The notes under the pieces were generated by a model, which was not told where the DNA came from, searched no databases, and saw only the letters and a program-made list of their open reading frames with translations. Below are positions 28,034 through 53,734 of a stretch of DNA of 56,485 bases, piece by piece. The position numbers and the translations under genes are program-made. Origin of the DNA: Saprospiraceae bacterium (GTDB taxonomy: Bacteria > Bacteroidota > Bacteroidia > Chitinophagales > Saprospiraceae); NCBI GenBank assembly GCA_027080725.1, contig JALWRC010000067.1:1-56485 (forward strand), read 5' to 3'. The first letter of the stretch is position 1; each line of letters opens with the position of its first letter.

Positions 28034-28064
28034 CAAATATACCATTTTGCTACACTTTACCAAA
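28034..28064 (-). promoter_or_regulatory. Promoter of the DUF302-like gene, overlapping the nifJ stop
   Basis: On the minus strand TTTG (28061-28064), a 19-base spacer and TATATTTG (28034-28041) match the Bacteroidota consensus exactly. The stop codon of nifJ (28050-28052) falls inside the spacer. The start codon of the downstream gene is 36 bases further on. Confidence 0.7.
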
Positions 28065-36213: not shown

Positions 36214-39200
36214 CTATGCTTTAATCAACTTACCTTGTGCCGCAACACCACTTCCGGTGTACTGTTGGATGAGATACACCCCTTTCTGAAGGGTGCTGAC
36301 ATTGATTTTCAAGACTTGACCGGAAGCTTTTTGAGCTGGAATATATTTTTGCAATTTTCCGTTCACATCAAATATCTTGATGGAGATTTCTTCTCCAACT
36401 TTCACACTGACCGGCACTTCCACCATGTCAACTGCAGGGTTGGGAGTAACGGCCAACTGTACCGGATGGTCTCCGGATACATCTTCCGTGGCAATCAGGC
36501 TTTCATCCACTAAGAAAACGTTCTCCTTCATTGTAGTCAATCCCGTGTTGCGCATAATTAACTCACCGAAGGTCGTTCGTTTTAATTCTGCTTTTTCCTC
36601 CTTGGTCAATCCGGGGTCGTTCTCATAGTAAAAACGGTCTCCGTCCCGCAAAGCTTGAAACTGCTGTGTGACGATACGCATCACCAGTTCGCCAAACAAT
36701 TCATCCTTCCCATGGTCTTCTGCCAACATCCCTACCCAAGGGTCGATGTTGTCTACACTTCCATAGGTTTCTGCCAATTGCTGACGAAGCCTGGACTTGG
36801 TCGTAATATCAGCAAAACTCCGCACCGGAGCCAAACCGAAGTCCTTGCGGATGGTATTGTAATCCGGCAATCCTCGCTCTCGTCCTCGGTTAATATTGAT
36901 CGCAGCCAGGTCCATACCTCCAGCGCCCGGAGCCCCAAACAAAAAGTTGCGCAAATCGTCGATAATTTTTGTATCAAAATCTTGCTCCACCTGCGCACTC
37001 ATACCCTTGAGATATGGATCGATATCCCCCATCTCCGCAATGGCTGTGGGATTAAAAAAGGCATCGCGTAAGAGGATGTCGCCTTCCGGCATATGATTGC
37101 CGTTGTCGTCCATACGCAACAGAGCACTATTGATGGTGGAGTGTCCGTAGCGATAAGCCGCCGCTGAAAATACATTGAATATTTGCGGATGCATATTGGG
37201 ATTGTACCCTTGGTAAGGAGGCAATTTAACGCCGATGGTCGGCAGCCACTCCTCATATGCCAGTGCTTCAATCAATCCACCTACCCATTTGCGCGCTTTC
37301 TGGTAGAGTTGCTCGTCCGTCCAATCCGGATGCTGCGCTTTGAGTTCGTCACACTTTCGGTTGTGCTCCCGCATGAATAGGGCATGCATAGAAGTCAAGA
37401 GTGGGTTTTCATTGCATCGAATATCTCCACTGACAAAGTACTTGGTCACATTGGGATTTGGGTTGGCCAGCTTGGGTGCCGACGGGTCAATGGGGTCGTC
37501 GTACTCCCCGGAATAGGTGTTGTAGGGAAGCAAGTTGCCTTTGGAGGTTTTCAACTTACCGTCCTTAAAAGTCCTTAGCCAGTTGGCCCAATCTTTCTCA
37601 GAGCCGTATATAGTAGAACCATCCATGAAGGCGGTAATACCGTTGTACACTTGACGCGGATTATTTACATCCGTACCTGTACCCGGCATGGCTTCAGAAC
37701 GCATCATCGGGATGATGGCACGGCCTTCACAATTGGGGTCAAACCACTCATCGCATTCGGGTACGGCAATCATGGCAGGGTCCTTGTCAGAATCCGGAAC
37801 AAAAGTGATGTCGTGATCGATAAACTGTCCCCAGGCAAAGTTGTAATCACTTAATCTCAACGGGTCTTCCACATTGCCCTCTTGAGTAAAAATCTTGTTG
37901 CTGATATTGCGCGGATTGGGTCGGTCCGGTCCAGCCGGTGCGCTAATGCCATCTGCATAGGCAATGGTAGTCAGCCGCTGTTGTGCCTCACCCACAGCGC
38001 CCCAGTTGGGATGAGCGATATTGTTATTACTGCCGTCAATACTCCTAACCTCAGCATAAGCGTGCTGTGCATAAAAAACATTTTCAGGCATAAATTCCGC
38101 GTCTGTATTGCGAACAATGATATCCGTAAGGGTAGTATTCTTCACCTCAGCCCGTTCAGCTTCTGTTAATCCGGGATCGATCTCAAAATAAAAGCGGTCG
38201 CCATCTCGTAACGCCTCAAACTGCCGCTTCAATATCGCTTTCAATGTCTCTCCAAACATCTCCCCGTCAGCCTTTTTCTCTGCGAGAAATCCAACCCATG
38301 GATCTACATCATCCACACTTTTATAAATGGAAGCCAAATCTGCGGCCGAAGACTCAGAAAACTGGTCGAAACGCTCCAATCGAGGTAAGCGCATCGCCTC
38401 TCGATAATCGTTGTACGTCGGCAGCCCCCGGTCACGTCCCCTGTTAATATTGGCAGAAGCCAGGTCCACTCCTCCGGAGCCCGGAGCACCAAACAAAAAG
38501 TTTCGCAGGTCGTTGATCATCTTCGTATCACTATCTTGAGCGACCTGCGTGGTCATCCCTCTCAATGCTGCAGCAATTCCATGATCTTTTAGTCGCTTGG
38601 GGTTAAAGAAATTTTGTCTCAAATAAGCGATACCATCGTCTTGCAGAGAACCATCTTCCTTCAGGAAATACAACTTAGAATTGATGGTAGAATGACCAAA
38701 GCGATACGCGGCGGTAGAAAAGACATTGGTCATCTGTGGGTTGGTATTTTCGTCATATCCTGCATAGGGTGCGAGCTCAAGTCCCAAGGCATCCATCCAC
38801 TGTTGATAGGTGATGGATTGAAGTTCTGCAGCGACTATTTCTCTTGCTTTCATGTACAGCTGCTGATCATTCCAGTCTGAATGCTCTGCTGCAAGTACAT
38901 CACACAATCTATTGTGCTCGCGCATGAAAAGTGTGTGCAAAGCAGTCAGTAGTGGATTTTCGTTGGCTCTGACGTCTCCTGCCACAAAATACTTCTTGAT
39001 AAATGGGAAGGGCATCGCCATCTCAGGGGCATCGGGATCGATAGCACCATCCTCCTCTCCTGTCAAGGTGTTCCATGGCAACAAATTGCCCTTGGATGTC
39101 CTGAGTTTTCCGCCTTTAAACGAACGCAACCAATTGGAACGCTCCAGGGTAGAACCGTAAACATTGGATGCATCGTGAAAGGCAGTGATGCCGTTGTAAT

Positions 39201-39684
39201 ATTTTCGTGGGTTGGTGATATCCGTACCCGTCCCCTTGATATAATCCGAACGGTGCATGGGCAAAACGGCGGTACCTGTTCCCTTTGGGTCGAAATACTT
39301 GTCCCCCTTGGGTACCGCGATGTCCAATGATTCGGTACTGCCGTCCGGACTCAATGTAATGTCGTGATCGACAAACTGCCCCCATACGAAAACAAAATCA
39401 CTTCTGTTGGCGGGGTCCAAGATACTTTCGGATTGCGCGAATACCGCATTGCTAATTTCGCGTGGATTAGGCCTGTCGACTCCGGAAGGTGCGGCATATC
39501 CATCAGAAAAAGAAGGAGCAGCGATAGTGATTATTGGTGAATTGGTCGCGCCCCAATCCGGGTGGGTCGGGTGTACCCCTTGACCGTCAATAGGTCGAAA
39601 CTCCTGCCCGATAATGGCTCCTTGAAATATAAACAAGGTTCCTAACGTAAATAATAGCTTAATTCGTAATCGTAAGTCACTCAT
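36214..39684 (-). CDS. T9SS-secreted tandem animal-type haem peroxidase
   Basis: 1156 residues: signal peptide, two animal-haem-peroxidase domains in tandem (about 40-540 and 560-1060), and a T9SS sorting domain (VTPNPAVDMVEVPVSVKVGEE … GVYLIQQYTG). Both copies keep the distal-His motif (WGQFVDHDIT, H at about 107, and WGQFIDHDIT), the MREHNR segment, the proximal-His segment (AYRFGHSTI, AYRYGHSTI) and the NINRGR(D/E)RGLP block. Both active sites therefore look intact. Related bacterial peroxidases oxidise halides or phenols with H2O2 at the cell surface; the substrate here is unknown. The duplication within one chain is unusual. A TAACTTTG box at 39756-39763 (minus) fits the promoter. It stands alone as a transcription unit. 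Confidence 0.92.
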   Translation of the reverse strand: MSDLRLRIKLLFTLGTLFIFQGAIIGQEFRPIDGQGVHPTHPDWGATNSPIITIAAPSFSDGYAAPSGVDRPNPREISNAVFAQSESILDPANRSDFVFVWGQFVDHDITLSPDGSTESLDIAVPKGDKYFDPKGTGTAVLPMHRSDYIKGTGTDITNPRKYYNGITAFHDASNVYGSTLERSNWLRSFKGGKLRTSKGNLLPWNTLTGEEDGAIDPDAPEMAMPFPFIKKYFVAGDVRANENPLLTALHTLFMREHNRLCDVLAAEHSDWNDQQLYMKAREIVAAELQSITYQQWMDALGLELAPYAGYDENTNPQMTNVFSTAAYRFGHSTINSKLYFLKEDGSLQDDGIAYLRQNFFNPKRLKDHGIAAALRGMTTQVAQDSDTKMINDLRNFLFGAPGSGGVDLASANINRGRDRGLPTYNDYREAMRLPRLERFDQFSESSAADLASIYKSVDDVDPWVGFLAEKKADGEMFGETLKAILKRQFEALRDGDRFYFEIDPGLTEAERAEVKNTTLTDIIVRNTDAEFMPENVFYAQHAYAEVRSIDGSNNNIAHPNWGAVGEAQQRLTTIAYADGISAPAGPDRPNPRNISNKIFTQEGNVEDPLRLSDYNFAWGQFIDHDITFVPDSDKDPAMIAVPECDEWFDPNCEGRAIIPMMRSEAMPGTGTDVNNPRQVYNGITAFMDGSTIYGSEKDWANWLRTFKDGKLKTSKGNLLPYNTYSGEYDDPIDPSAPKLANPNPNVTKYFVSGDIRCNENPLLTSMHALFMREHNRKCDELKAQHPDWTDEQLYQKARKWVGGLIEALAYEEWLPTIGVKLPPYQGYNPNMHPQIFNVFSAAAYRYGHSTINSALLRMDDNGNHMPEGDILLRDAFFNPTAIAEMGDIDPYLKGMSAQVEQDFDTKIIDDLRNFLFGAPGAGGMDLAAININRGRERGLPDYNTIRKDFGLAPVRSFADITTKSRLRQQLAETYGSVDNIDPWVGMLAEDHGKDELFGELVMRIVTQQFQALRDGDRFYYENDPGLTKEEKAELKRTTFGELIMRNTGLTTMKENVFLVDESLIATEDVSGDHPVQLAVTPNPAVDMVEVPVSVKVGEEISIKIFDVNGKLQKYIPAQKASGQVLKINVSTLQKGVYLIQQYTGSGVAAQGKLIKA

Positions 39685-41161: not shown

Positions 41162-41950
41162 CTATTTTACCAACTCTCCATCCTCTACAATGATGGAGTA
41201 GCGATAACCGGCACCGAAGTCTTTATCCAGACGGACAATGCCTTTCATCGTAACGATGTGCCCTTCAGGGATGGAGGTATTGGAAGTAATCACGAGGTCA
41301 AAATCGTCCTTGCTGCCGTCCTTGAGATGCAGCCAATTGCGCCCCATGATGTTGTAATTGGCCTTCACGACTTTTCCGCTGATTTGTACTTTTTGTCCCG
41401 CATAATTCTTGGCGTTCTTCACCAGATCGGTAATTTTCAAAGAGCCCTTTACTTCAATCTTGGTATCTATAGGCGCTACATCCTCCACCCTGGAGTGCGC
41501 CTCTTCAGGAGTGACGGGTTTGAAATCCGGGTTTTGGCTGTGGTTGGCGGGGACAATTCTAGACACCAGATATATCTTGTCAAAGGTTCGGTGATACTCC
41601 TTGCTCTCAAAATTGGTTTTCAAGAGCCCTCCTTTATAAAACACCTTCTCCCCTACTTTGACAGGCTGCTTGGTAGTGGCAATCCAAAAGGCCTCTCCAT
41701 TTTCCTCTACACGAAGGTAGACGTATTTGTCCGTAGGCAATACTTCCTTAACGACCACTTGATGCATATCATCCGGCATCGCGGTATTGGAAGGGACGTT
41801 AGGGGTTGAGGCCCCGTTGCCCATTTTCTCTTTGAACAATTTCTCTGTAATGCGCTCTTGTCCCTGTCCTTCTTCCGCTACCACTGTAGGTGCGTTATTG
41901 CAACCGGCGAAGAACAATACGCCCATGCAAATGACCATTAGTCTAATCAT
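41162..41950 (-). CDS. NrfJ-like lipoprotein with two OB-fold-type domains
   Basis: 262 residues. A lipoprotein signal (MIRLMVICMGVLFFAGC) puts the acylated Cys at 17. Residues about 60-135 resemble the NrfJ-type OB-fold (KYVYLRVEENGEAFWIATTKQPVKVGEKVFYKGG … FDKIYLVSRI). A second OB-like module covers about 170-260 (ITDLVKNAKNYAGQKVQISGKVVKANYNIMGRNWLHLKDGS). NrfJ-type proteins accompany multihaem cytochrome loci and are thought to help cytochrome maturation or metal delivery; the mechanism is unsettled. It overlaps the barrel gene by four bases (ATGA) and is the last gene of the operon. Location: periplasmic face of the inner or outer membrane. Confidence 0.75.
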   Translation of the reverse strand: MIRLMVICMGVLFFAGCNNAPTVVAEEGQGQERITEKLFKEKMGNGASTPNVPSNTAMPDDMHQVVVKEVLPTDKYVYLRVEENGEAFWIATTKQPVKVGEKVFYKGGLLKTNFESKEYHRTFDKIYLVSRIVPANHSQNPDFKPVTPEEAHSRVEDVAPIDTKIEVKGSLKITDLVKNAKNYAGQKVQISGKVVKANYNIMGRNWLHLKDGSKDDFDLVITSNTSIPEGHIVTMKGIVRLDKDFGAGYRYSIIVEDGELVK

Positions 41951-43584
41951 AATTTCCTCTTTCTTTTTCTATCAAATCGCCGGATCAGCTTGGTGTTCAA
42001 CCGGTAGCTATTACCGCTGTACCGGTCCGAAAGCTCCCCGAGCACACTCAACGTCAAACGACGCGTAAATCTAAAGGAAAGATTCAATCCGTAGTACTTT
42101 GTATTCCGTTTAATTTCGCTATTTATAAAAGCGTAATCCACCCATCTAAAATACATATCTACTCCCAAGCGACGCTTAAACATACTTCTCGAATGCCGGA
42201 CGGACCAAATATCACTGGTCAAATAGCTCGAAGTATTGTGATTGTAGCGGGCCGAAAGCCTTCCTTTCACCCAGGGAATCCGCGACCAACTGATGAATCC
42301 GTTGATATTGCCGGAGGCGTTTTGCCGGCTGTTTTGAAATCGTTTACTATAGCTCACTCCGGTATAAACCCGTCTAAAGGGTCTAAAATTGATCCGCACC
42401 CTCGCGCCTTGTCTGGCTTCGTCATCCTCCAATAATTTCTCTATCTCCGTCTTAAAGGTCTCGTACTGCAAGATGCGTTTGCGGGAGTCATACGATAGAC
42501 TCACACTCAGCCTCCTGCTGAACCGGTAACGACCGGAGAGATACATATTGGTAAGTCTAAAATCATTGGATGCGACATCGTTTACCCTTTTGTACAAATC
42601 CACCTCAAAAGAGCCAAACAAACTAATGGACCTACCTATCGAGCTCGAATGCTGGAAATAGGCATACCTTCTATCTACCAGTCCTTTGTTCCTCTGTTCT
42701 AACACGCCCAGTGTGGTCTGCGCATATAACTTCCGGCTGCTGATGGCTCTTCCCAAATAGGCACCGTATTGCAACAGGTCTGTATTGAGTCCGTAGTCAT
42801 ATATATCCGGTCTAAATCCTACGATGGCACCGACAAAGTTCTTACCGAAAGACTTATTGACTTGTACACCGTCAATTGCCCCGAGAGAAGAGGCACGGTA
42901 GTTGATTTTCCTTCCGACCAACACATTGAAAGAGGGATTGGGCTCATAAGATACTGCAAGGCTGTACACGTTGTATTGCCGCAGTGGGTAACTGACGATA
43001 CGTCCTGCGGGGAGATACCGCTGCCTATAGTTCATATAGGTTTCCGCCGACCAAGCAGAATGAGCAATATGGTCCGCGTCGAAGGACAACCGATAGTTGA
43101 CGCGGTGATTCCAATCTTCGCCTTCACCCCCATAGCTGCTCGAAGAGGCTGACATCCGGGCGCGTAAACGCTCCTCCCGGGCAGGATCTTCTTTCGGCTC
43201 CTCTTTTTCTTCTACTGCTACTGCTTTGTCAGTCTTATTCCTTTTTATGGTCTGCTTAGGTTTTGGCGTCGGTTGAGGGTCCGGTCTCGGAGGGATGTAT
43301 ACGATTTCATACCCCTTCTCCAACACACAATCCGCTAACGGCAAACAAACACAGGAAGTGCTGGACTTTTGGGTTACCCTGAGACAAGGTATCCGTTGTC
43401 CCTGCTTCATGGAGTAAAGGGTATCGCCATGCTTAATCGGTGCGGTGGACGCAAACTTGACATATACATTGGCAGAGGTCACAAAACTCACCTTCCCCGC
43501 GATCACCTCACGGCCTTCCTGACTGTACGAAGATACAGAGAGCAGCAGAAGAACCCATATAAACAGATATCTCATTTCCTTCAT
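41947..43584 (-). CDS. Outer-membrane beta-barrel of the multihaem operon
   Basis: 545 residues from the ATG at 43584, two bases after the stop of the 64-haem gene; an ATG three codons later is equally good. Signal peptide MRYLFIWVLLLLSVSSYSQ. Residues about 25-110 form a small SH3/OB-like periplasmic domain with two Cys pairs (STSCVCLPLADC). A Pro/Lys/Glu-rich linker (about 110-160) follows, then about 390 residues of alternating amphipathic strands (YRLSFDADHIAHS, YMNYRQRYLP, YSLAVSYEPNP, and RRLTLSVLGELSDRY near the end). That pattern indicates a barrel of roughly 18-20 strands. It is not recognisably MtrB or PioB, but its position makes it the candidate sheath or porin that lets cytochromes conduct across the outer membrane (inference). 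Confidence 0.72.
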   Translation of the reverse strand: MKEMRYLFIWVLLLLSVSSYSQEGREVIAGKVSFVTSANVYVKFASTAPIKHGDTLYSMKQGQRIPCLRVTQKSSTSCVCLPLADCVLEKGYEIVYIPPRPDPQPTPKPKQTIKRNKTDKAVAVEEKEEPKEDPAREERLRARMSASSSSYGGEGEDWNHRVNYRLSFDADHIAHSAWSAETYMNYRQRYLPAGRIVSYPLRQYNVYSLAVSYEPNPSFNVLVGRKINYRASSLGAIDGVQVNKSFGKNFVGAIVGFRPDIYDYGLNTDLLQYGAYLGRAISSRKLYAQTTLGVLEQRNKGLVDRRYAYFQHSSSIGRSISLFGSFEVDLYKRVNDVASNDFRLTNMYLSGRYRFSRRLSVSLSYDSRKRILQYETFKTEIEKLLEDDEARQGARVRINFRPFRRVYTGVSYSKRFQNSRQNASGNINGFISWSRIPWVKGRLSARYNHNTSSYLTSDIWSVRHSRSMFKRRLGVDMYFRWVDYAFINSEIKRNTKYYGLNLSFRFTRRLTLSVLGELSDRYSGNSYRLNTKLIRRFDRKRKRKL

Positions 43585-43585
43585 T

Positions 43586-46500
43586 TTACTCCTTTCCTTC
43601 CGGATGACAAGAATAACAGGCATCGCTATTGTAAGAATATCCACTGACTCCGTCGTGGTCATCATCTACCTCCGCCTGGTCGTCATGTTCGTGACAATCG
43701 ATGCAACTGAAACTATTGAAATTACCGCCTAAATGACAGTCCGCACAAACGTTCCACTCGTCATCGTGCTTTCCGCTGTATATCGGAAAATACTGGGCAT
43801 CGTGGTCAAAACTCGATGGTTCCCATCCATCCTCGGCATGACAATCTTCACAAGTGGTGGGATATCCCTCTCCTGAGTGGTCGGGATCATCGGCATTATT
43901 ATAATCGGACTGATGACAGCCATAGCATTCGGTCGGAGTATTATTGTAATCCCCTTGATGACAATCGTAGCAGTCTTGCACGTCTTTATGTTTGCCTTTT
44001 AGTTCCCAGTAGTCATCGTGTATATCAAACGTCGCTGGTTTCCAATTGGGTGCAGTGGTATGACATTCATCACAGGTCGTACTGAGTCCCAGATTGGTAT
44101 GGCTCGGATTGGTGGTATTATCATAATCGGATTGATGGCAACCGGAACATTGGTTGGGGGTATTGTTATAATCCCCATTATGGCAGTCCGCACAATTGTC
44201 TTTAATGTCCAGATGGGCCCCCGTTAAGGGATAATAATTATCATGCACGTCAAAGGTAGCAGGCTTCCAGCCGGGTTCTGTCGTATGACAATCATCACAG
44301 GCTGTTGACAACCCTAAGTTTACATGATCCGGATTGGTCGTATTGTCATAATCGTTTTGATGACAACCGGAACATTGGTTGGGGGTATTGTTATAATCCC
44401 CATTATGGCAGTCCGCACAATTGTCCTTAATATCCTGATGGGCCCCCGTTAGAGGGTAATAATCATCATGCACATCGAAAGTGGCAGGCTTCCAGCCGGG
44501 CTCCGTCGTATGGCAATCGTCACAAGCATTGCTCAATCCCAAATTGACGTGATTGGGATTGGTGGTATTGTCATAATTGGATTGATGGCAGCCTTTGCAT
44601 TCGGTCGGAGTATTGTTATAATCCCCGTGATGACATTCTGCACAATTATCTTTAACATCAATATGAGCACCTGTTAACTCATAGTAGTCGTCATGTACAT
44701 CAAAGGTGGCCGGCTTCCAGCCGGGCTCTGTCGTATGGCAATTATCACAGGTGTGTGAAAGGCCCAGATTTTTGTGATTGGGATTGGTGGAGGCATCGTA
44801 ATTGGATTGATGACAGCCGTTACAATCCTTCGGTGTTTTATTGTAGTCTCCATGGTGGCACTTCTCACATTCCTCTGAAACGTCAACATGAGCTCCGGTA
44901 AACTCCCAATAATCTTCGTGTTGCGGGAACATTGCCGGTTGCCAATCCGGATCCATCGTATGACAAATTAAGCAGTCCGTCTCCAGGTTCAATTTCTGAT
45001 GATCGGGATTGGTCGATTCGTCGTATTGCTTTTTATGACATTTGTAGCACTCCTTGGGCGTATCCTTGTACATACGCTTCTCATGGCACTGCCTGCAGTC
45101 CACCATCATGTGACTTCCCACCAATGGAAAGTCCGTATCATCGTGATTGATGCCGGAACCTTTCTCGCCCATGGGGTGACAATCCAGGCAATCGATGCTC
45201 TTATAGATGTACCCGCCTATCATCTCATGCTGCTCTCCCGTCTCTTTCTTTTCATGACAGGTAACGCAGGTGAACACGGCATAATTCATCGGATCCGTAT
45301 GGCAATCCACACATTCATTCCATTCATCTTTGTGGGTTCCCGAATAAATAGGAAAGAACTCGGCATCATGATCGAAGTCTGCCGGCGTCCATGCCGTCTC
45401 CGTGTGGCACTTCTGACATTCGGTGGAGAACCCTGCTGTCTCATGTACAGGATTGGTCGTCGCGTCGTATTTGTCCCGGTGACAATCCACGCACAACTTC
45501 GGGTTATTCACATAATCCCCATTGTGGCATTTGGCACAATCGGTCGCAATATCAGCGTGTGCACCGTTGAGTTCATAAAAATCATTGTGCACCTCGAAGG
45601 TCGCAGGAGCCCATCCCGCATCCGTCGTGTGGCAACCTGCACAATCGGTAGATAAGTTCAGCTTGGTATGGCTCGGATTGATGGAAGCATCATAATCTTT
45701 CTGATGACACCCGACACAGGCTCCCGAAAGACCTTCAAAATTGCCATTGGTATGGCAGGCAAAGCATTCGGTATTCTGGTGTTCGCCGGTTAGTGGGAAG
45801 GCCGTCATATCGTGATCAAATACATCATCCCCATCTCCTGTCGGGTGGCAGCCCAAACAAGCAGCATCACTATAGATATACCCTTTCACCTTTTTATGTT
45901 CTTCATCCGTATCCGGATTCTTGTGGCAGTTGGTACAGCTCACCACCATGATATTATTGGCGTCTGTATGACAATCGGTGCAGGCACTCCACTCGCCCTC
46001 GTGTTTGCCGGAGTAAATCGGGAAGAACTGTCCGTCATGGTCAAAAGTTGAAGGCTTCCATTCCGACTGGGTATGACACATCTCACAATCGGTAGAGAAC
46101 TTCACACGAGCGTGATCGGGATTTTTTGCCCCATCATAAGCATCCCGGTGGCAACCGACACATTCGTTAGGCGTGGTGGTGTAATCCCCATTGTGGCATT
46201 TGGCACAATCGGTCGCAATTCCGGCATGCGCTCCTTCTAATAAGTAATAGTCATTGTGGACATCAAACCGCGCCGGAGCCCAGTCAGGGTCCGTGTTGTG
46301 ACAAGAGGCACAGTCCTTAGACAGTCGCAACTTGTTATGGCTCGGGTTGAGTGAAGCATCGTAATCCTTCTGATGACAATCCACACATCCCGTCGTCAAC
46401 CCCTCGAATCCCCCATTGGTATGACATGCCGTGCATTCCGTCGTCTGGTGCACTCCTGTAAGAGGAAATGCCGTGTTGTCATGGTCAAATATATTGTCCT

Positions 46501-48394
46501 TGTCCCCCGTTGGATGACACCCCAGACAAGCTGGATTGTTGTACACATATCCCTTGACCTTCCGGTGCTCTTCATCCATCTTTGGATTTTTGTGGCAATT
46601 GGTACAGCTAAAGACCGATATATTATTGGGATCCGTGTGGCAATCCGTACAGGAGCTCCACTCTCCTTCATGTTCGCCGGAATAGATCGGAAAATTTTCG
46701 CCATCGTGGTCAAAGGTCGAGGGCCTCCATTCGGATTGGGTGTGACACATCACACAATCTGTAGAGAATTTGGCCGTGGCGTGATTGGGATTGGTCGCGT
46801 CATCGTAATCCTGGCGATGACATCCTACACACTCATTGGGCGTGTTGGTGTAGTCGCCATTATGGCACTTGACGCACTCCATGGCAATCGCAGCATGTGC
46901 ACCCTCCAAAACAAAGAAATCATCGTGATTGTCAAAACGAGCAGGCTTCCACTCCGGATCCGTCGTATGACAGGAAGCACAATCCGTGGACAAATTCAAC
47001 TTCTTATGCTCCGGATTGGTGGTCTTGTCATAATCCTTGTTATGACAGGCGACACAATCCGTCGGCGTCCCCGCATACCCGTTGGCATGACAATCTATAC
47101 AATAAGTCTCCTGGTGGGCACCTGTCAGAGGAAAAGCCGTATTGTTGTGGTCAAACACATTGTCCGCATCCCCGGTAGGATGACACCCGAGACAGGCTTG
47201 GTCTCTGTAAAAGTAATTAGAGACACTTTTATGCTTGTCATCCGTCTCCGGATTGGTGTGACAGGTGATGCACGTAAAGAGCCCATAATCCGCAGGATCT
47301 TTATGACAATCGACACATGCATTCCACTCCCCTTCGTGCTTGCCGGAATAGATCGGAAAATACTTGCCGTCATGATCAAACGTCGATGGCGTCCAGGCAT
47401 CCTCCGTATGGCACGTACTACAATCCTTGGAGAATTGAGACTGGATGTGATTGGGATTCTCCGTGGCATTGTACTTGGCTTCGTGGCACCCAAAACAGGT
47501 ATTCGGAGCATTGTCGTACCCCGCCGTGTGGCACTTGGCACAATCTTCTTTAATCAACGCATGAGCTCCTCGCAGTTCGTAATAGTTATCGTGAATATCA
47601 AACTTCGCCGGCTTCCACCCCACATCCGTCGTATGACAAGAGGCGCAATCCATCGGAAAGTTCAATCGTTCATGTGCCGGTTGTTTGGATTGTATGAAAT
47701 CGTTGGCATGGCAGGTCTTGCAATCCGGAGAAGCATCCGAATAATTATCGGTCACATGACACCGCTTACAATCCTTGATGTCGTGCCCCAGGGTCAGTGG
47801 GAAAAAGTCGTGATTGACCTTGTCCGTCCGCCACCCTATCGTCGTGATATCGTGGCACTCCAGACAGTTCTTTGAAAATCCCCCCGCGAGGTGATTGGGA
47901 CTGATGGTCGCCTCGTAATCCTTGGCATGACAACTGATACAGTCATTGCCAATCCTCTCGAAACGCAAAGCTCCGACATCACCATGACAGGCTATACAAT
48001 TCAACCCCGAATGATTGAGGATAAGTGGAAAACCGTTTTCTTCGTGCAATTCCGGAATGCGGTCCACCAACCAATTGTCCGTATGGTGGCAACGCGCACA
48101 GGCATCTCCGACAGTCATGCTGTGCATATCATTATGACAAGAGATACAATCTGTCTTAGCGGTCGAAAAGACCAACTCCGTGTGACAGGATTTGCAGTCG
48201 GTCAATCGATGCTGGCCTGTCAGAGCAAATGAAGTACTGTTATGATCAAAACGCATCGAATCCATATTCACCGTCCAACTGTCCGCCGTGTGGCAAAGGG
48301 CACAATCCATAGTAAACCCTTCACCGTGCGGAGATTGCGCCCAGAGTGAAAGGGTCAGAAGGAGGAGCACAATGCCAATTAATATGCGTTTCAC
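43586..48394 (-). CDS. 64-haem modular c-type cytochrome
   Basis: 1602 residues with a signal peptide (MKRILIGIVLLLLTLSLWAQ) and, by eye count, 64 CXXCH motifs, one per 25 residues. No CXXCK or CX3-4CH variant was seen. Layout: a 7-haem head (motifs 1-7), four 9-haem modules of about 223 residues (motifs 8-43), six 75-residue 3-haem units (motifs 44-61) and a 3-haem cap (62-64) ending CYSCHPEGKE. Extra conserved His in FDHDGxxFPIYSGKH and GAHxDI segments probably supply bis-His ligation. The start is GTG at 48394; there is no ATG near. It has its own promoter (48557-48586). The likely role is long-range electron transfer in the periplasm or outside the cell, with the barrel encoded two bases downstream. 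Confidence 0.93.
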   Translation of the reverse strand: MKRILIGIVLLLLTLSLWAQSPHGEGFTMDCALCHTADSWTVNMDSMRFDHNSTSFALTGQHRLTDCKSCHTELVFSTAKTDCISCHNDMHSMTVGDACARCHHTDNWLVDRIPELHEENGFPLILNHSGLNCIACHGDVGALRFERIGNDCISCHAKDYEATISPNHLAGGFSKNCLECHDITTIGWRTDKVNHDFFPLTLGHDIKDCKRCHVTDNYSDASPDCKTCHANDFIQSKQPAHERLNFPMDCASCHTTDVGWKPAKFDIHDNYYELRGAHALIKEDCAKCHTAGYDNAPNTCFGCHEAKYNATENPNHIQSQFSKDCSTCHTEDAWTPSTFDHDGKYFPIYSGKHEGEWNACVDCHKDPADYGLFTCITCHTNPETDDKHKSVSNYFYRDQACLGCHPTGDADNVFDHNNTAFPLTGAHQETYCIDCHANGYAGTPTDCVACHNKDYDKTTNPEHKKLNLSTDCASCHTTDPEWKPARFDNHDDFFVLEGAHAAIAMECVKCHNGDYTNTPNECVGCHRQDYDDATNPNHATAKFSTDCVMCHTQSEWRPSTFDHDGENFPIYSGEHEGEWSSCTDCHTDPNNISVFSCTNCHKNPKMDEEHRKVKGYVYNNPACLGCHPTGDKDNIFDHDNTAFPLTGVHQTTECTACHTNGGFEGLTTGCVDCHQKDYDASLNPSHNKLRLSKDCASCHNTDPDWAPARFDVHNDYYLLEGAHAGIATDCAKCHNGDYTTTPNECVGCHRDAYDGAKNPDHARVKFSTDCEMCHTQSEWKPSTFDHDGQFFPIYSGKHEGEWSACTDCHTDANNIMVVSCTNCHKNPDTDEEHKKVKGYIYSDAACLGCHPTGDGDDVFDHDMTAFPLTGEHQNTECFACHTNGNFEGLSGACVGCHQKDYDASINPSHTKLNLSTDCAGCHTTDAGWAPATFEVHNDFYELNGAHADIATDCAKCHNGDYVNNPKLCVDCHRDKYDATTNPVHETAGFSTECQKCHTETAWTPADFDHDAEFFPIYSGTHKDEWNECVDCHTDPMNYAVFTCVTCHEKKETGEQHEMIGGYIYKSIDCLDCHPMGEKGSGINHDDTDFPLVGSHMMVDCRQCHEKRMYKDTPKECYKCHKKQYDESTNPDHQKLNLETDCLICHTMDPDWQPAMFPQHEDYWEFTGAHVDVSEECEKCHHGDYNKTPKDCNGCHQSNYDASTNPNHKNLGLSHTCDNCHTTEPGWKPATFDVHDDYYELTGAHIDVKDNCAECHHGDYNNTPTECKGCHQSNYDNTTNPNHVNLGLSNACDDCHTTEPGWKPATFDVHDDYYPLTGAHQDIKDNCADCHNGDYNNTPNQCSGCHQNDYDNTTNPDHVNLGLSTACDDCHTTEPGWKPATFDVHDNYYPLTGAHLDIKDNCADCHNGDYNNTPNQCSGCHQSDYDNTTNPSHTNLGLSTTCDECHTTAPNWKPATFDIHDDYWELKGKHKDVQDCYDCHQGDYNNTPTECYGCHQSDYNNADDPDHSGEGYPTTCEDCHAEDGWEPSSFDHDAQYFPIYSGKHDDEWNVCADCHLGGNFNSFSCIDCHEHDDQAEVDDDHDGVSGYSYNSDACYSCHPEGKE
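43840..45105 (-). repeat. 225-bp repeats encoding 3-haem units
   Basis: Six units of about 75 residues with motifs of the form CxxCHxGDYN, CxxCHQSxYD and CxxCHTTEPGW. The AGGCTTCCAGCCGGG segment recurs at 44261, 44486 and about 44711, exactly 225 bp apart. The central copies are nearly identical in DNA, so amplification was recent. Confidence 0.9.
45105..47770 (-). repeat. 669-bp repeats encoding 9-haem modules
   Basis: Four modules. The motifs CIDCH, CTACH and CFACH that open modules 2-4 fall at about 47098, 46432 and 45763, near 669 bp apart. Each module ends with a CLGCHPTGD or CLDCHPMGE segment. Confidence 0.88.
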
Positions 48395-48528
48395 GTAATC
48401 CGGTTAATTTCTATTACTTAATATTTTCGTTTTTCTCCTACATCACGAGAAGCAATGCTCTTCCCGAGGAGATGAATCATTTTTGAGCCTTAATATTGGA
48501 ATAGGACATGTGGGATAGTATAAGGTAA

Positions 48529-48549
48529 AAGGAAGGAGCTCTCTTCCTT
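48529..48549 (-). promoter_or_regulatory. 5'-end hairpin of the 64-haem mRNA
   Basis: AAGGAAG and CTTCCTT pair in a 7-bp stem around GAGCTCT. It begins within a few bases of the transcription start predicted from the promoter, a placement that protects mRNA 5' ends. Confidence 0.45.
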
Positions 48550-48556
48550 ATGAGTA

Positions 48557-48586
48557 CAAAGTTAATCCATCTTTTCATTTTTGCAA
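48557..48586 (-). promoter_or_regulatory. Promoter of the 64-haem cytochrome gene
   Basis: On the minus strand TTG (48584-48586), a 19-base spacer and TAACTTTG (48557-48564) match the Bacteroidota consensus. Transcription would start near 48550, giving a leader of about 155 bases before the GTG start at 48394. Confidence 0.7.
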
Positions 48587-48712
48587 CTAATTCTTCTCTT
48601 TTTTCCCCTTTTTGTCGCATGCAGTACAGTACTTATTCATATACACATATGCTACATTATCACCTTTCGGTTGCTTGTAAATGATTTTTTTTATCTAAGA
48701 GGTTGAAATGCA

Positions 48713-49738
48713 TCACCTACCGCTTGGGTGACATTCCAGGCAAGCCCGGCTGTCGTGCGAATACCCCCCTACCTCGTCGTGCTTTCGCTCCAGCTTGGCT
48801 GCGTCGCGGTGTTTATGACAATCCGTACAACTAAACAGCGTATAGTCTCCGGGAGTTGTATGGCATTCGGAGCACAACTTCCACTCCCCACCGTGTTTGC
48901 CGGAATAGACTGGGAAATACAAGTCATCATGGTCTTCAAAAACCGCAGGACTCCAACCCGGATCTGTCGTATGGCATTGGGTGCAATCCGTAGGAAAACC
49001 GGAGGACTTATGATCGGGGACCTCTGCATCATTGTATTGCGCTTCGTGGCAGCTAAAGCACTCCGAACTCAATCCCACATAGACCTGATTCCGGTGGCAT
49101 GCCGCGCAATCCATAATATCATGTCCCTTGGTGAGCGGGAAAAAATAATGGCTTACCCTTGTCCATCCTCCTGTACTCATTGGGTCGTGACATTGGTTGC
49201 AGTCTGTAGAAAATCCCGCTTCCACATGCGGCGGGTTGGTTGTATTATGATATATTTCCAAGTGACAATTGGAGCAAACATTGCCGGCATCATTAAAGAG
49301 CAATCCGTTGTCCGAGATATGGCAAGCTTCACAGGACACATTAAAATGGCTCCCCTCCAACGAAAAGCCCGCCATTTCATGCAATTCGGGAATATTATCC
49401 ACCAACCAATTGTCCGTCGTATGACAGCGGGCACAATCCGCGCCCACCGATTGGCGATGCATATCCGTATGGCAGTCGATACACCTGCCGTGTGTACCAT
49501 TAAACTTTAAGTCTGTATGACATTCCTTACAATCCAAAGATACGTGTTGCCCGGTCAAATCAAAATCATGCCCGGAATGGTCATACCGGAATGTGTCAGT
49601 GGAGATATGCCAGCTGTCCTCATTATGACAGAAACCGCAGTCGATACCCAACCCTGCTTCATGTGGCGACTGGGCCCACGATTTCATACCGGCTAATACG
49701 AACAAGCCAAAAATCACTTGCCATGGCAATCGATACAT
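48713..49738 (-). CDS. 13-haem c-type cytochrome
   Basis: 341 residues with a signal peptide (LPWQVIFGLFVLAGMKSWAQ) and 13 CXXCH motifs. Its first seven motifs align with the head of the 64-haem protein (CGFCHNEDSW, CKECH, CIDCHTDMH, CARCHTTDNWLVD, CEACH, CSNCH, CNQCH). Its last three (CSECH, CTDCHKH, CLECHPSGR) match that protein's cap. One three-motif unit (CAACH, CFSCHEAQYN, CTQCHTTDPGW) joins them. It is therefore the short version of the same design, without the amplified modules. It overlaps the 23-haem gene by 25 bases and so is translated with it. A periplasmic electron carrier or relay is likely. No catalytic haem motif was seen. Confidence 0.92.
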   Translation of the reverse strand: MYRLPWQVIFGLFVLAGMKSWAQSPHEAGLGIDCGFCHNEDSWHISTDTFRYDHSGHDFDLTGQHVSLDCKECHTDLKFNGTHGRCIDCHTDMHRQSVGADCARCHTTDNWLVDNIPELHEMAGFSLEGSHFNVSCEACHISDNGLLFNDAGNVCSNCHLEIYHNTTNPPHVEAGFSTDCNQCHDPMSTGGWTRVSHYFFPLTKGHDIMDCAACHRNQVYVGLSSECFSCHEAQYNDAEVPDHKSSGFPTDCTQCHTTDPGWSPAVFEDHDDLYFPVYSGKHGGEWKLCSECHTTPGDYTLFSCTDCHKHRDAAKLERKHDEVGGYSHDSRACLECHPSGR

Positions 49739-51555
49739 TCGAACTTTTCTATTTTATAGTTGATGTCCTTCATCTCGCCGCCTTCCGGAATTTTATGGCA
49801 CTCCTGGCAAGCCAAATCCTTATGCTTACCATCCAGGGGGAAGGCCGTCTTGCTGTGGTCAAAGCCCCTGGGCTCCCAATCCACTGCATCGTGACATCGC
49901 TTGCAATCCGTCTTCCCCTCCTCCTCAAATTGGGTGCCGTGCACATTGTCGTGACAGGCAAAACACTCCTTATCCAGGTCGACAAACTTCTGTGTGTTTT
50001 GACCATTGTCTCCTGTCTCCTTGAAATGGCAGGCCCGGCAAGCCACTTCCATATGCTTGCCCTCCAACGACCATCCCGTAGAATCATGAGCGAAATGCAC
50101 CTCAGACCAGCGGGACGCATCATGACAGCGCGCACAATCCCGATCCGGATAGTATTTCTCCGGTATGAAATCGTTATGTATGTCGTCATGGCAATCCACA
50201 CAGGCTTTGCCAATCTCCCGGAATTGCCAGGGCGGATCCTTGTCTTCCTTCAAATGACAGGCAAAACACGGGGTGGCTTCGTGCCCTCCTTCCAATGGGA
50301 AGTCCGACTTGGCATGCCGCTCCAAGCCATATGCGCTGTTGTCAAAACCCGCCGATAGCGAATGACAGTCCACACAATCCGGGGCCTGTCCCCCCGTCTT
50401 TGCAAACACCCCCCGGTGATAATCTTCATGACACTTGTCGCACCGGGAAAAATCCAAAGGATCGGTGTACTTCCCTTTGTGACAAGATTTGCATTCTACA
50501 CCGGTATGCTGTCCCTCCAACGGGTAATCCGTGACACTGTGATCGAAGGTTTTCAGGTCATCGAGCGACAAAAAACTGCGTTCGTTATGGCATTTGGCGC
50601 AGTCTGTACCAAACTTCCCCCCGTGTTTGTCCTCGTGGCATTTGACACAGGCATCTTCCCGCACACCAAGCTGATCTTGAAATATCGTCTTGGGATTTGT
50701 CCCCTTTTTGTGGCATTCAAAACAAGCGGTGCTCTTATGCTTTCCGCGCAACTTAAACTTAGTCAAACCATGGTTAAAATGAGAGCGGGTGCGGAAATCC
50801 TTAAAATCATGCTGCACATCATGGCATTGAGCACAAGCCCCGGGCAAGTGCTCCAAATGCGGGTCTTTATGACAATCCACACACTTCTTAAATGATAGTC
50901 CTGTAAAAACCTGAAAGTCCTGCCCTTTTCGCTTTTCGAGAGGATGGCATTTCTTACAGTCCACGTCCACATGCTTGCCTTCGAGCTTGTACTTGGCATC
51001 GTCGTGGTCAAACTTCGGAGCAGGACGCCATTTCTTTTCGTTGTGACATTTGGAACAATCGTTATCGAGGGTCTTTTGGTGGTAATCGTCGTGGCAGCTC
51101 AGGCATTCTTTCTCTAATCCCAGGAAAGTTCCCTTTCGCTTCTTGAGTTCGGGATCCCGTATTTTATCGGGCATGTGGCATTTTTTACAATCGATCTCCG
51201 CATGGCGTTTCTTGAGCGGATATCCGGTGAGGTCATGGTCAAAATTGAGTGCATCAAAATGAAGCATGTCAAATTTCCGCCCGTGGTGCTCGCTGTGACA
51301 CACCGTGCAATCTTTCCCTTTGGCCTCCTTGCTCGAGTGGTACCCGCGTTTGCGGTCCAGCAGCGCTTGCATCTCCTTATGACAATCGAGGCATTTGGCA
51401 TTGGTTACCTTATTACCCAAATCATGACAAAGGGTACAATTGCTCATCCCCTCGTATTTGGCATGTGCACGTGTCAGGTCTCCCGGAGAAATTTGCGCAC
51501 TTCCCTTCCAGGCGAAGAGGAACAAGAAAACCCATATGCCGGTCCTTTGCGTCAT
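49714..51555 (-). CDS. 23-haem c-type cytochrome
   Basis: 613 residues with a signal peptide (MTQRTGIWVFLFLFAWKGSAQ) and 23 CXXCH motifs by eye. Unlike the other two it is Lys-rich and lacks the GDYN and QSNYD repeats. Its motifs pair as FDHDxxxYxLxGKHxxVxCKxCH units, each with a distal-His candidate in GKH, and CHEDxH linkers. The last motif, CIDCHGK, is three residues from the end. Its start forms TAATG with the stop of the FAD enzyme gene. The high positive charge and its place next to the inner-membrane components suggest that it is the first periplasmic acceptor, passing electrons to the acidic 13- and 64-haem proteins (inference from charge and gene order). Confidence 0.92.
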   Translation of the reverse strand: MTQRTGIWVFLFLFAWKGSAQISPGDLTRAHAKYEGMSNCTLCHDLGNKVTNAKCLDCHKEMQALLDRKRGYHSSKEAKGKDCTVCHSEHHGRKFDMLHFDALNFDHDLTGYPLKKRHAEIDCKKCHMPDKIRDPELKKRKGTFLGLEKECLSCHDDYHQKTLDNDCSKCHNEKKWRPAPKFDHDDAKYKLEGKHVDVDCKKCHPLEKRKGQDFQVFTGLSFKKCVDCHKDPHLEHLPGACAQCHDVQHDFKDFRTRSHFNHGLTKFKLRGKHKSTACFECHKKGTNPKTIFQDQLGVREDACVKCHEDKHGGKFGTDCAKCHNERSFLSLDDLKTFDHSVTDYPLEGQHTGVECKSCHKGKYTDPLDFSRCDKCHEDYHRGVFAKTGGQAPDCVDCHSLSAGFDNSAYGLERHAKSDFPLEGGHEATPCFACHLKEDKDPPWQFREIGKACVDCHDDIHNDFIPEKYYPDRDCARCHDASRWSEVHFAHDSTGWSLEGKHMEVACRACHFKETGDNGQNTQKFVDLDKECFACHDNVHGTQFEEEGKTDCKRCHDAVDWEPRGFDHSKTAFPLDGKHKDLACQECHKIPEGGEMKDINYKIEKFECIDCHGK

Positions 51556-52892
51556 TATCCGTGTTTTTTTACAATATATCCAAAGCGTTTGGTAATCTCT
51601 ACTCCGGCTTTCTTGAGGAATTGAGTCGGAAGCTCTCCCCCCGCAAAGATATAAACCAAATCATTATCAAACTCTTGCAGTCCTTCGATACCATCTATGG
51701 CGACCTTAACCCTGTCCGGCAGAATTTCTTTCAGGTTGGAATGAAACAATACGTGCACGCTCCTATCCTCAATGGCTTTATTTATTTTATCCCTGTTCTT
51801 GAGTTTTATTCTTGAAAACACCCCTTTGCGATAGGAAAGAATCACCTCATTTTGGTCTTTGAGCATTAGAGCTGCTTCAATAGCCGAATCTCCTCCACCC
51901 ACTACAAACACTTTCTTACCTTCGATTGCCTCGGCATCCAGAAGGCGATAGGCTACTTTTTCCAATCCCTCACCGGGGATGCCCAGCTTGCGGGGAGAGC
52001 CCCTCCGACCGATGGCCAACAACACATGATTGGCGATAAAAGGCCCACCTTTTGAAGTATCTACGCGGAAGGTACCGTCCTCTTGCCGCACGATTTGTTC
52101 GACTTTGACATGCTCCCGGATGTCGAGATTCTCCTTCGCAATCACCTTGCGCCAAAGGTCCAACAATTCTTCTTTTCTCGCCTCATAAAGCCTGACCTTC
52201 CCATACAGAGGCAGTTCCACCGGTGAAGTCATGACAATCTTGGCGCGCGGGAAGTTGTACACCGTCCCTCCCAACGAATCCTGGTCCAGGGTAACGCTCT
52301 TTAAGCCGATTTTTTTGGCCATCAACGTGGCACCAATTCCCGCAGGCCCGGCACCAATAATAACTACATCCAAAGCCTCCTCCCTCTTTGCTTTTCCGGA
52401 CTTTGCAATGGCATGGATGGCTTGTTTCCCCTGTTCGACACTGTTCTTAATCAGCCCCATACCGCCCAACTCCCCGGCGATGTAAATGCCCGGCATATTG
52501 GTCTCATAGTTTTGATTGACATGCGGCAAATCCACCCCTCGGGTCTCTGTACCTATGCGAAGGGATATCGCCTGCACCGGACAAGCGTGAAAACAAGCGC
52601 CATGACCGACACAGTTGGAGGCGCGAATGACCTGAGCGAGTCCGTCAACAATCCCGAGAATATCCTTCTCGGGACATGCTTCTACGCACGCTGCGCTACC
52701 GATGCAGGTATCGAGGTCGATGTACGGATGCAGGGACACGGGTTCGTGTACGCCTTCCTCCTTGGCAATGGCGACCTTTTGCAAAACCTCTTGAGACTTT
52801 TTCTTATTGCGCCGCAAGTAATACAATACAATGCCCAAACACAAGAGGGCAACACCCCCGTAAACAGCTATATTCTCGATTATTACTTCCAT
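51555..52892 (-). CDS. Membrane-anchored 2x[4Fe-4S]/FAD pyridine nucleotide oxidoreductase
   Basis: 445 residues from the ATG at 52892, which forms TAATG with the stop of the cytochrome b gene. An ATG four codons upstream (52904) is possible. One N-terminal membrane helix (YGGVALLCLGIVLYYLRR) leads to two ferredoxin-type cluster motifs (CIGSAACVEACPEKDI with a reduced third spacing, and CVGHGACFHACPVQAI). A thioredoxin-reductase-like flavoprotein follows, with FAD Rossmann motif VVIIGAGPAGIGATLMA and NAD(P) motif VFVVGGGDSAIEAAL. The CxxC disulfide of thioredoxin reductases is missing, so it should move electrons between NAD(P)H, flavin and Fe-S clusters. It is the likely cytoplasmic entry point of the conduit, delivering to the b-type membrane protein. 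Confidence 0.87.
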   Translation of the reverse strand: MEVIIENIAVYGGVALLCLGIVLYYLRRNKKKSQEVLQKVAIAKEEGVHEPVSLHPYIDLDTCIGSAACVEACPEKDILGIVDGLAQVIRASNCVGHGACFHACPVQAISLRIGTETRGVDLPHVNQNYETNMPGIYIAGELGGMGLIKNSVEQGKQAIHAIAKSGKAKREEALDVVIIGAGPAGIGATLMAKKIGLKSVTLDQDSLGGTVYNFPRAKIVMTSPVELPLYGKVRLYEARKEELLDLWRKVIAKENLDIREHVKVEQIVRQEDGTFRVDTSKGGPFIANHVLLAIGRRGSPRKLGIPGEGLEKVAYRLLDAEAIEGKKVFVVGGGDSAIEAALMLKDQNEVILSYRKGVFSRIKLKNRDKINKAIEDRSVHVLFHSNLKEILPDRVKVAIDGIEGLQEFDNDLVYIFAGGELPTQFLKKAGVEITKRFGYIVKKHG

Positions 52893-53734
52893 TAAAATAT
52901 CCATTTATACCCGAAAGCCAAAGTCACTGCTACATGAATAATAACAATGATAAGCATAATGACCGCAAAAGGCAAATGCGCTACGTGCCAATATTTAAAC
53001 AGATTTTGCATCAGGGTAAGGCGCTTCATCTTTCGCGCCAATCCGAGCTCCTCCCTTAGCAATTCGAGCACGGTCTCCTTTTGCTCCCCTGACAATGCAC
53101 CGGAAGCGAGTTCTTTACGGATTCTACGTACCAGTCTTTTATCCTTGAAATAGCTGGCCATTAGCCCACCGGCGGATGTCCCGGCTGTCCCCATCCCCCC
53201 AACGACCTCCCGGGGAAGGTGAAACTCGTTTACAAGCCGGTTTTCAAGGGAAGCTTTCAATAGTTTTACCTCATTTAAACTCAAGGCGCGCCCGTCTATA
53301 GTCCTGGGAATCTGCACATAAATAAAACGGCCCACCACCCCGCTCAAAACCACTGCCACCATGCTCCAAAAGGCGACGGAGACAATTCCGCCAAACTTAA
53401 ATGCTGTATGAAATAGCACCATGATAGGCCCCAAGGTACAAAGAAAGATATGAAATTCCAACAGGTACTTCAAGCGTATGAAGCGCTCCATAAAGTGATA
53501 CCTCTTGCGCGCAATGTATATGCTTACCCCAAATAGTATCATCAAAGTCCCCACAATCCCCAAACCGTGGCCATAGGCTCCGCTCGGCTTGAACCACGCA
53601 TGGCGGGGGTGGTAAAAGCGCTCTTCGAGGGGGGTGTGATAGTAACTGTAACCTGTATATGCCAAATATACAGTCACCGCTACCGTGACCAACACCATGG
53701 ACCAGATGTATATCGCGTGTACTGTCTTACTCAT
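52892..53734 (-). CDS. Cytochrome b-like inner-membrane protein
   Basis: 280 residues, first gene of the seven-gene run. About five to six hydrophobic helices: one at the N-terminus (YIWSMVLVTVAVTVYLAYTG), three in the middle (GHGLGIVGTLMILFGVSIYI, EFHIFLCTLGPIMVLFH, VAFWSMVAVVLSGVVGRFIYV) and one at the end (HLPFAVIMLIIVIIHVAVTLAFGY). A charged cytoplasmic loop of about 90 residues (155-245) separates the last helix. His residues placed inside helices (H94, H107, H253 and H268 approximately) could ligate two b haems. It resembles the b-type subunits in cytochrome c3-type loci, which pass electrons across the inner membrane. Haem binding is inferred, not proven. Confidence 0.75.
   Translation of the reverse strand: MSKTVHAIYIWSMVLVTVAVTVYLAYTGYSYYHTPLEERFYHPRHAWFKPSGAYGHGLGIVGTLMILFGVSIYIARKRYHFMERFIRLKYLLEFHIFLCTLGPIMVLFHTAFKFGGIVSVAFWSMVAVVLSGVVGRFIYVQIPRTIDGRALSLNEVKLLKASLENRLVNEFHLPREVVGGMGTAGTSAGGLMASYFKDKRLVRRIRKELASGALSGEQKETVLELLREELGLARKMKRLTLMQNLFKYWHVAHLPFAVIMLIIVIIHVAVTLAFGYKWIF

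Follow-up and report, generated by a model that had tools for sequence, protein, structure and literature searches.

The porin-cytochrome conduits closest to the system described here, MtrCAB, PioAB, Pcc OmbB/OmaB/OmcB and ExtABCD, encode an outer-membrane barrel together with multihaem c-type cytochromes and have an entry point for electrons at the inner membrane. A cassette of seven genes with these same elements was analysed on contig JALWRC010000067.1 of a Saprospiraceae bacterium (assembly GCA_027080725.1), where it occupies positions 41162-53734 of a stretch of 56,485 nucleotides, hereafter called the window. It differs from the known conduits in that its barrel does not match MtrB/PioB by profile and was modelled with 22 strands, and in that it carries an entry module of its own, composed of a FAD/NAD(P)H oxidoreductase and a di-haem b-type cytochrome, as well as a lipoprotein without haem. 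In place of the plug and surface lipoprotein of the Mtr layout it encodes two c7-type chains with signal peptides. The cassette is interpreted here, with moderate confidence, as a conduit that carries electrons from NAD(P)H outward across the cell envelope.

Single chains of trihaem units are also known from the periplasmic haem 'nanowires' GSU1996, GSU0592 and GSU2210 of Geobacter, which contain 12, 12 and 27 haems (PMC10138318). The chain of the cassette differs from these in being part of a conserved envelope cassette, in its near-constant head and tail and in reaching at least 88 haems. In an OmbB-like cluster of Burkholderiales S13, cytochromes with 24 and 49 haems precede the porin and, as in the cassette, the haem number of the larger cytochrome differs between close relatives; this cluster belongs to another phylum and porin family, and the available portion of the text mentions neither a three-haem step nor a FAD/b-cytochrome module (PMC7399161). 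Giant secreted haem proteins reported from Saprospiraceae, for which electron transfer or storage was speculated (PMC11495043), are probably the same kind of protein, both being hitherto undescribed proteins of Bacteroidota that are exceptionally rich in haem motifs; the section on them counts motifs per protein and mentions neither a gene cluster nor partner proteins, a step rule or a pathway. A bioanode cluster of Bacteroidetes_1 likewise combines multihaem cytochromes with a barrel, but six of its seven genes are multihaem and the passage on it describes no flavoprotein (PMC8258643). No description of the cassette or of its step rule was found in the literature searched, which included no preprints and few subscription papers.

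Organization of the cassette

The seven genes of the cassette, in their order from the inner-membrane end, are:

52892-53734, minus strand: di-haem b-type cytochrome, membrane protein, 280 amino acids (aa)
51555-52904, minus strand: membrane-anchored ferredoxin-like and FAD/NAD(P)H oxidoreductase, 449 aa
49714-51555, minus strand: 23-haem c-type cytochrome, 613 aa, with signal peptide and no lipobox (judged by eye)
48713-49738, minus strand: 13-haem cytochrome, minimal form of the modular cytochrome, 341 aa
43586-48394, minus strand: 64-haem modular cytochrome (13 + 3 x 17 haems), 1602 aa, GTG start
41947-43584, minus strand: outer-membrane beta-barrel, 545 aa, modelled with AlphaFold2
41162-41950, minus strand: lipoprotein with lipobox, 262 aa

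All seven open reading frames (ORFs) were found on one strand and in the order given in a preliminary description of this DNA, and its counts of 23, 13 and 64 CXXCH motifs (100 together) and zero CXXCK were reproduced by motif count. CXXXCH and CXXXXCH motifs did not occur in the three window cytochromes. The genes had also been described as tightly packed; neighbours indeed overlap or nearly touch, except that a gap of 318 bases separates the 13- and 64-haem genes, so that the run may comprise two transcription units. For the barrel gene the most probable start is 43584 and not 43665, since an ATG, accompanied by a ribosome-binding-like sequence, lies one base past the stop codon of the 64-haem gene. 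The arrangement is more than chance, since the same set recurs in many genomes.

Conservation in Bacteroidota

The barrel and the b-cytochrome were searched separately in 60 relatives including the host, and both were found in the identical 10 genomes, among them the host. They were located on one contig in six genomes (host, G003, G013, G017, G024 and G040) and on separate contigs in the other four. The order in the five contiguous relatives was b-cytochrome, flavoprotein, 23- or 20-haem cytochrome, 13-haem or modular cytochrome, barrel and lipoprotein. Species genomes were then scanned with the b-cytochrome as query, and the best 80 of 497 relatives were kept as loci. All but one came from named Bacteroidota taxa, the remaining one being labelled just 'bacterium'. 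Over all surveys, the gene set recurred in Saprospiraceae, Flavobacteriaceae, Cyclobacteriaceae and deeper branches. The same gene order was the rule in the 80 loci, with the flavoprotein present in 76, the barrel in 40 and the lipoprotein in 31; many contigs stop earlier. In locus L042 the lipoprotein was present and the barrel absent after the 23-haem gene, in L072 the 13-haem gene preceded the 23-haem gene, and L081 and L095 had no visible lipoprotein despite remaining sequence. A second barrel of the same family adjoined the cassette on the opposite strand in L043 (11617-13227).

Among 395 genomes of the phylum the barrel was detected in 33 and the b-cytochrome in 44, with 40 strong matches, and all 33 barrel genomes were among these 40 (Fisher p 1e-41, not corrected for kinship). 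The two genes were at most about 10 kb apart in 29 of the 33 genomes and about 20 kb apart in G350, and lay on different contigs in G139, G378 and G441. Seven strong b-cytochrome genomes had no barrel match, but five of these contained a diverged barrel ORF in place (26-64 bits), one of them cut by the contig end. In one of the other two the contig ended inside the cluster, and G436 showed no barrel. A barrel match or diverged ORF was thus present in 38 of the 40 genomes (in G197 only as a fragment).

The preliminary description had staked its reading on the barrel being conserved next to the cytochromes, and this was the case in the surveys of 60 relatives, 80 loci and 395 genomes. The feature that marks porin-cytochrome conduits, a barrel encoded beside large c-type cytochromes and conserved together with them, is therefore present. 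Five partner proteins also co-diverged in 26 complete loci, with Mantel r values of 0.76-0.91 that were reached in 0 of 999 permutations; common descent of the hosts contributes to this figure. A further set of 20 loci included divergent clusters and the genomes without a barrel match. In the divergent clusters the flavoprotein came after the barrel. One locus (L125) had only a truncated b-cytochrome and a barrel fragment, an apparent remnant, and the cassette may have been lost in some lineages.

Haem number of the modular cytochrome

The complete genes most similar to the 13- and 64-haem proteins numbered 51, and 48 of them had 13+3n haem motifs, with values of 13, 16, 19, 22, 25, 28, 31, 34, 37, 43, 46, 61, 64 and 73; being related, these genes are not independent cases. 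The three exceptions were a 12-motif gene with other spacing and genes with 39 and 12 motifs that seem to have lost the frame or to run into N. Relatives from the 60-genome survey added 76 and 88 haems. The 20 further loci contained 41 complete genes with at least 5 motifs, of which 18 were the 20/23-haem partner; 19 of the other 23 fitted 1 modulo 3, three were an extra 9-motif gene and one had 38 motifs. The overall span was 10 to 88 haems, nearly always 1 modulo 3.

In motif spacing, a near-constant head precedes n repeats, each of about 31-16-25, and a tail that is likewise near-constant closes the chain; the spacing of the 13-haem protein equals the head plus the tail of the longer forms. 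The modular cytochromes of Arenibacter echinorum (25 haems) and Arenibacter sp. F20364 (16 haems) differed by a single clean gap of 216 residues, equal to three trihaem units, while the b-cytochromes of the two strains were 98% identical; where compared (b-cytochrome and modular cytochrome), these cassettes were near-identical apart from wire length. Yeosuana marina had 31 haems and Y. aromativorans 22. The Pfam family Cytochrome_C7 matched 14 stretches of the 64-haem protein (4e-57), 1 of the 13-haem protein and 9 of the 23-haem protein. A 225-bp tandem repeat in the 64-haem gene (3.2 copies, 80% matches) indicated that some repeats are still alike as DNA. The 64-haem protein contained 69 His besides its 64 CXXCH motifs. 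A phmmer search with it against the PDB gave no match at E<=0.001, which does not decide on kinship with solved filament subunits of the OmcS/OmcE/OmcZ type.

The free variation of the haem number would also be permitted in a periplasmic electron store, in which the modular cytochrome would be a capacitor taking one electron per haem when the acceptor is short and the barrel a channel or assembly factor. No surface-export signal was seen on the cytochromes, and GSU1996, to which the 23-haem protein is closest among solved structures, is periplasmic and was proposed to be a capacitor (PMC10138318); the speculation on the giant cytochromes (PMC11495043) is similar. Against a store stand the barrel match or diverged barrel ORF in 38 of the 40 strong b-cytochrome genomes, with a contig edge in one of the other two, and the near-constant head and tail around whole units, which suggest docking ends. 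A store is regarded as unlikely.

Haem ligands

In 56 proteins of the 23-haem type all 23 CXXCH His were invariant, as were exactly 23 further His, so that all haems of this protein are probably bis-His ligated. The 13-haem set (n=6) had 13 further invariant His, the 31-haem set (n=4) had 31 and the 20-haem set 21. By these counts every axial position in the proteins with 23 and 13 haems is taken, and on a simple reading of the sequences ligation would be bis-His throughout, with no catalytic haem. CXXCK was absent from all multihaem ORFs (at least 5 motifs) of the 80 loci and occurred once in the 41 complete ORFs of the 20 further loci (L122). The view that nothing in the cassette resembles a nitrite, hydroxylamine or sulfite reductase thus holds, given that the window lacks CXXCK and that, by the ligand counts, neither the 23-haem nor the 13-haem protein has an axial position to spare.

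The profile of the 23-haem protein matched the dodecahaem structure 3ov0 in the PDB (3.7e-11), which we take to be GSU1996. Repeated trihaem units and bis-His ligation, as in trihaem chains of the c7/c3 type, were both found, with ligand counts that fall short at 16, 19, 22 and 25 haems.

Barrel and lipoprotein

The AlphaFold2 model of the barrel (pLDDT 82.3, pTM 0.65, alignment of 40 sequences) showed an N-terminal domain at about 28-96 followed by 22 strands within 138-542, as counted by hand with the omission of a 3-residue strand at 337-339. The best VIA structural match was to barrels of the SusC/TonB type (Z 18.1, 351 residues, root-mean-square deviation 4.5). Occ porins were also among the best matches listed, and other porins were within one Z unit; as several porin types are this close, the model shows a large barrel and not its kinship. 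MtrB and PioB were absent among the structural matches listed, which does not speak against a likeness to their fold. The window barrel matched no Pfam or NCBIfam family at E<=0.1, PF11854 (MtrB_PioB) matched 0 of 40 barrels at that threshold, and the barrel profile found only mavicyanin (0.66) in the PDB and no solved sequence relative. By profile, then, the barrel is not an MtrB/PioB porin, in line with the preliminary description, which did not recognise it as a member of the known conduit families. In the whole host genome PF11854 gave a single marginal match at E<=1, a 910-aa frame on contig C74, which was rejected as this barrel because it lies elsewhere in the genome. Weak family matches of single barrels, the best being Porin_4 (0.0038, one of 40), were judged to be chance or generic. 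ExtJ, from a selenite/tellurite cluster, matched 4 of the 40 barrels weakly (best E 0.0068), and the similar stretch was N-terminal in both matching barrels among 10 rescanned; this is at most a lead towards kinship with the Geobacter porins OmbB, ExtB and ExtI.

The lipoprotein follows the barrel in the relatives as well, and its lipobox Cys17 was present in at least 90% of 16 members. The labels 'OB' and 'NrfJ-like' given to it previously could not be confirmed: Pfam yielded just a borderline GW-domain match, and the best PDB match of its profile was only at E about 0.1.

Proposed inner-membrane entry module

The b-cytochrome contained two invariant pairs, H95-x13-H109 and H253-x13-H267, in 42 sequences (and also in the set of 10), and its model was helical (pLDDT 81.8). 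DUF4405 matched 32 of the 42 proteins, at best with 5.2e-6, and did not match the protein of the window. ABC-transporter helices, which headed the VIA matches listed, were judged to reflect generic helix likeness.

The flavoprotein matched Pyr_redox_3 (3e-40) and Fer4_10 (1.6e-11) and was closest to YpdA-type reductases, with a match of 3e-26 to the YpdA/thioredoxin-reductase-like structure 7a76. Of its seven Cys, six belong to the ferredoxin motifs, and the seventh is part of the hydrophobic anchor stretch at the N-terminus. As this leaves none for a disulfide of the thioredoxin-reductase type, and the catalytic CxxC is missing, assignment as a thioredoxin reductase was rejected. The ferredoxin part had been called a two-cluster type; two motifs are present but with just six Cys the full set is not, the motifs containing C-x2-S and C-x2-H. 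The second Cys of the first motif was Ser in 81 of 83 proteins, including that of the window, and that of the second motif was His in 83 of 83. In the 20 further loci, 18 flavoproteins had the motif; 12 of them carried Cys at the Ser position, and all 18 had the His.

FRE/NOX reductases likewise combine H-x13-H pairs with a FAD/NAD(P)H partner as their cofactor set. The cassette might accordingly be an assimilatory or detoxifying surface reductase, which would reduce Fe(III), other metals, nitro-aromatics or humics with NAD(P)H, for iron supply or protection and not for respiration, in the manner of a ferric reductase or NADPH oxidase that spans two membranes. Many carriers are known as aerobes, Arenibacter algicola and Yeosuana aromativorans are hydrocarbon degraders, and the host has four genes of the COX1 family, which also includes NO reductases. 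But only a cytochrome c synthase recurs widely beside the cassette, and in our opinion a chain of 64-88 haems seems costly for such a role, which is considered improbable.

Proposed electron pathway

If the cassette is an outward conduit, its products would form a complex in which the membrane-anchored FAD/iron-sulfur protein receives electrons from NAD(P)H, or from reduced ferredoxin, in the cytoplasm and the di-haem b-cytochrome moves them across the inner membrane. The 23-haem protein would bridge the periplasm and, in extended form and at 1 nm per haem, measure about 23 nm; the 22-strand barrel would conduct the electrons through the outer membrane, with the lipoprotein as a possible anchor or assembly partner. 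One end of the 13+3n-haem cytochrome, either the near-constant head of 9 haems or the tail of 4, might dock at the barrel, and the protein would serve as an outer wire, with a reach set by the number of trihaem units, towards an acceptor presumably outside the cell. The value of 1 nm per haem is taken from the title of the paper on the structure of dodecahaem GSU1996. On this basis the modular cytochromes would measure 13-88 nm; these lengths, like that of the 23-haem protein, are an upper guide because GSU1996 is crescent-shaped (PMC10138318).

The function in electron transport put forward in the preliminary description is supported by the conservation of the barrel with the cytochromes, the missing CXXCK and the probably full axial ligation of the 23- and 13-haem proteins. 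The parts span the envelope from the cytoplasm to the outer membrane, the partners co-occur and co-diverge, and a haem-c synthase adjoins the cassette in 28 of 80 loci. Electron flow in the reverse direction, with Fe(II), sulfide, electrodes or partner cells reducing quinone or NAD(P)+, is considered quite improbable: Mtr/Pcc/Mto/Pio pathways are said to run both ways (PMC8258643), but an NAD(P)H-linked flavoprotein fits outward flow more simply.

Several observations weigh against the outward conduit. The modular cytochrome had neither a lipobox (by eye) nor a type 9 secretion tail (Pfam), so that it may stay in the periplasm. Conservation by interval in eight 22-haem proteins was 0.61-0.72 for intervals 3-7 and 0.27-0.65 for the others (0.64 for interval 18, 0.32 for the last); the end caps are thus not clearly better conserved than the inner repeats, which gives little support for two-ended docking. 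The further invariant His were fewer than the haems in the sets with 16 (14), 19 (18), 22 (18) and 25 haems (19), a shortfall for which misregistered repeats may account. The barrel modelled alone had 22 strands, fewer than the 26 of MtrB, the b-cytochrome had no solved relative by sequence (PDB) or by fold (Foldseek, E<=0.001), and among the 20 further loci the lipoprotein turned up just once. With aerobic carriers and the four COX1-family genes, a need for extracellular respiration is not obvious.

A wider and only tentative proposal is that aerobic and other Bacteroidota possess an unnamed class of conduits, in which electron export driven by NAD(P)H would use a single-chain haem wire of selectable length with fixed end caps, which evolution would have lengthened or shortened in whole trihaem units, its length being tuned to a local barrier such as a capsule, a surface layer or the distance to the acceptor. 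Nature would then supply nearly matched strains that differ in wire length. If the outward conduit is right, many common Bacteroidota from the sea and from sludge, including some cultured ones known to be aerobic, would be equipped for electron export, and the proteins involved carry no such function in the family models tested. With the haem ladder, the benefit of length in a biological haem wire becomes open to experiment, for instance in the two Arenibacter strains with their 25 and 16 haems.

Neighbouring genes and host

The synthase that adjoins the cassette in these 28 loci is of the CcsBA type; it combines ResB and CcsA-type domains and has a length of 1045 aa in L024. Where 500 or more bases remained (25 loci), it came after the lipoprotein in 18; in other loci, for example L047 and L085, it preceded the b-cytochrome. 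It was the only widely recurring neighbour, two smaller clusters being found in 7 and 6 of the 80 loci. The window has no synthase gene; the host genome contains a 1054-aa frame with a CcsA-type domain on another contig. Next to the cassette, positions 36214-39684 of the window encode a protein that matches animal haem peroxidase twice and carries a type 9 secretion tail, and this gene was not among the conserved neighbours. The pyruvate:ferredoxin oxidoreductase (PFOR) proposed to feed the cassette through ferredoxin is present at 28050-31577, but the link found no support, as PFOR is not among the conserved neighbours. Together with the four COX1-family genes, it suggests that the host is possibly facultative.

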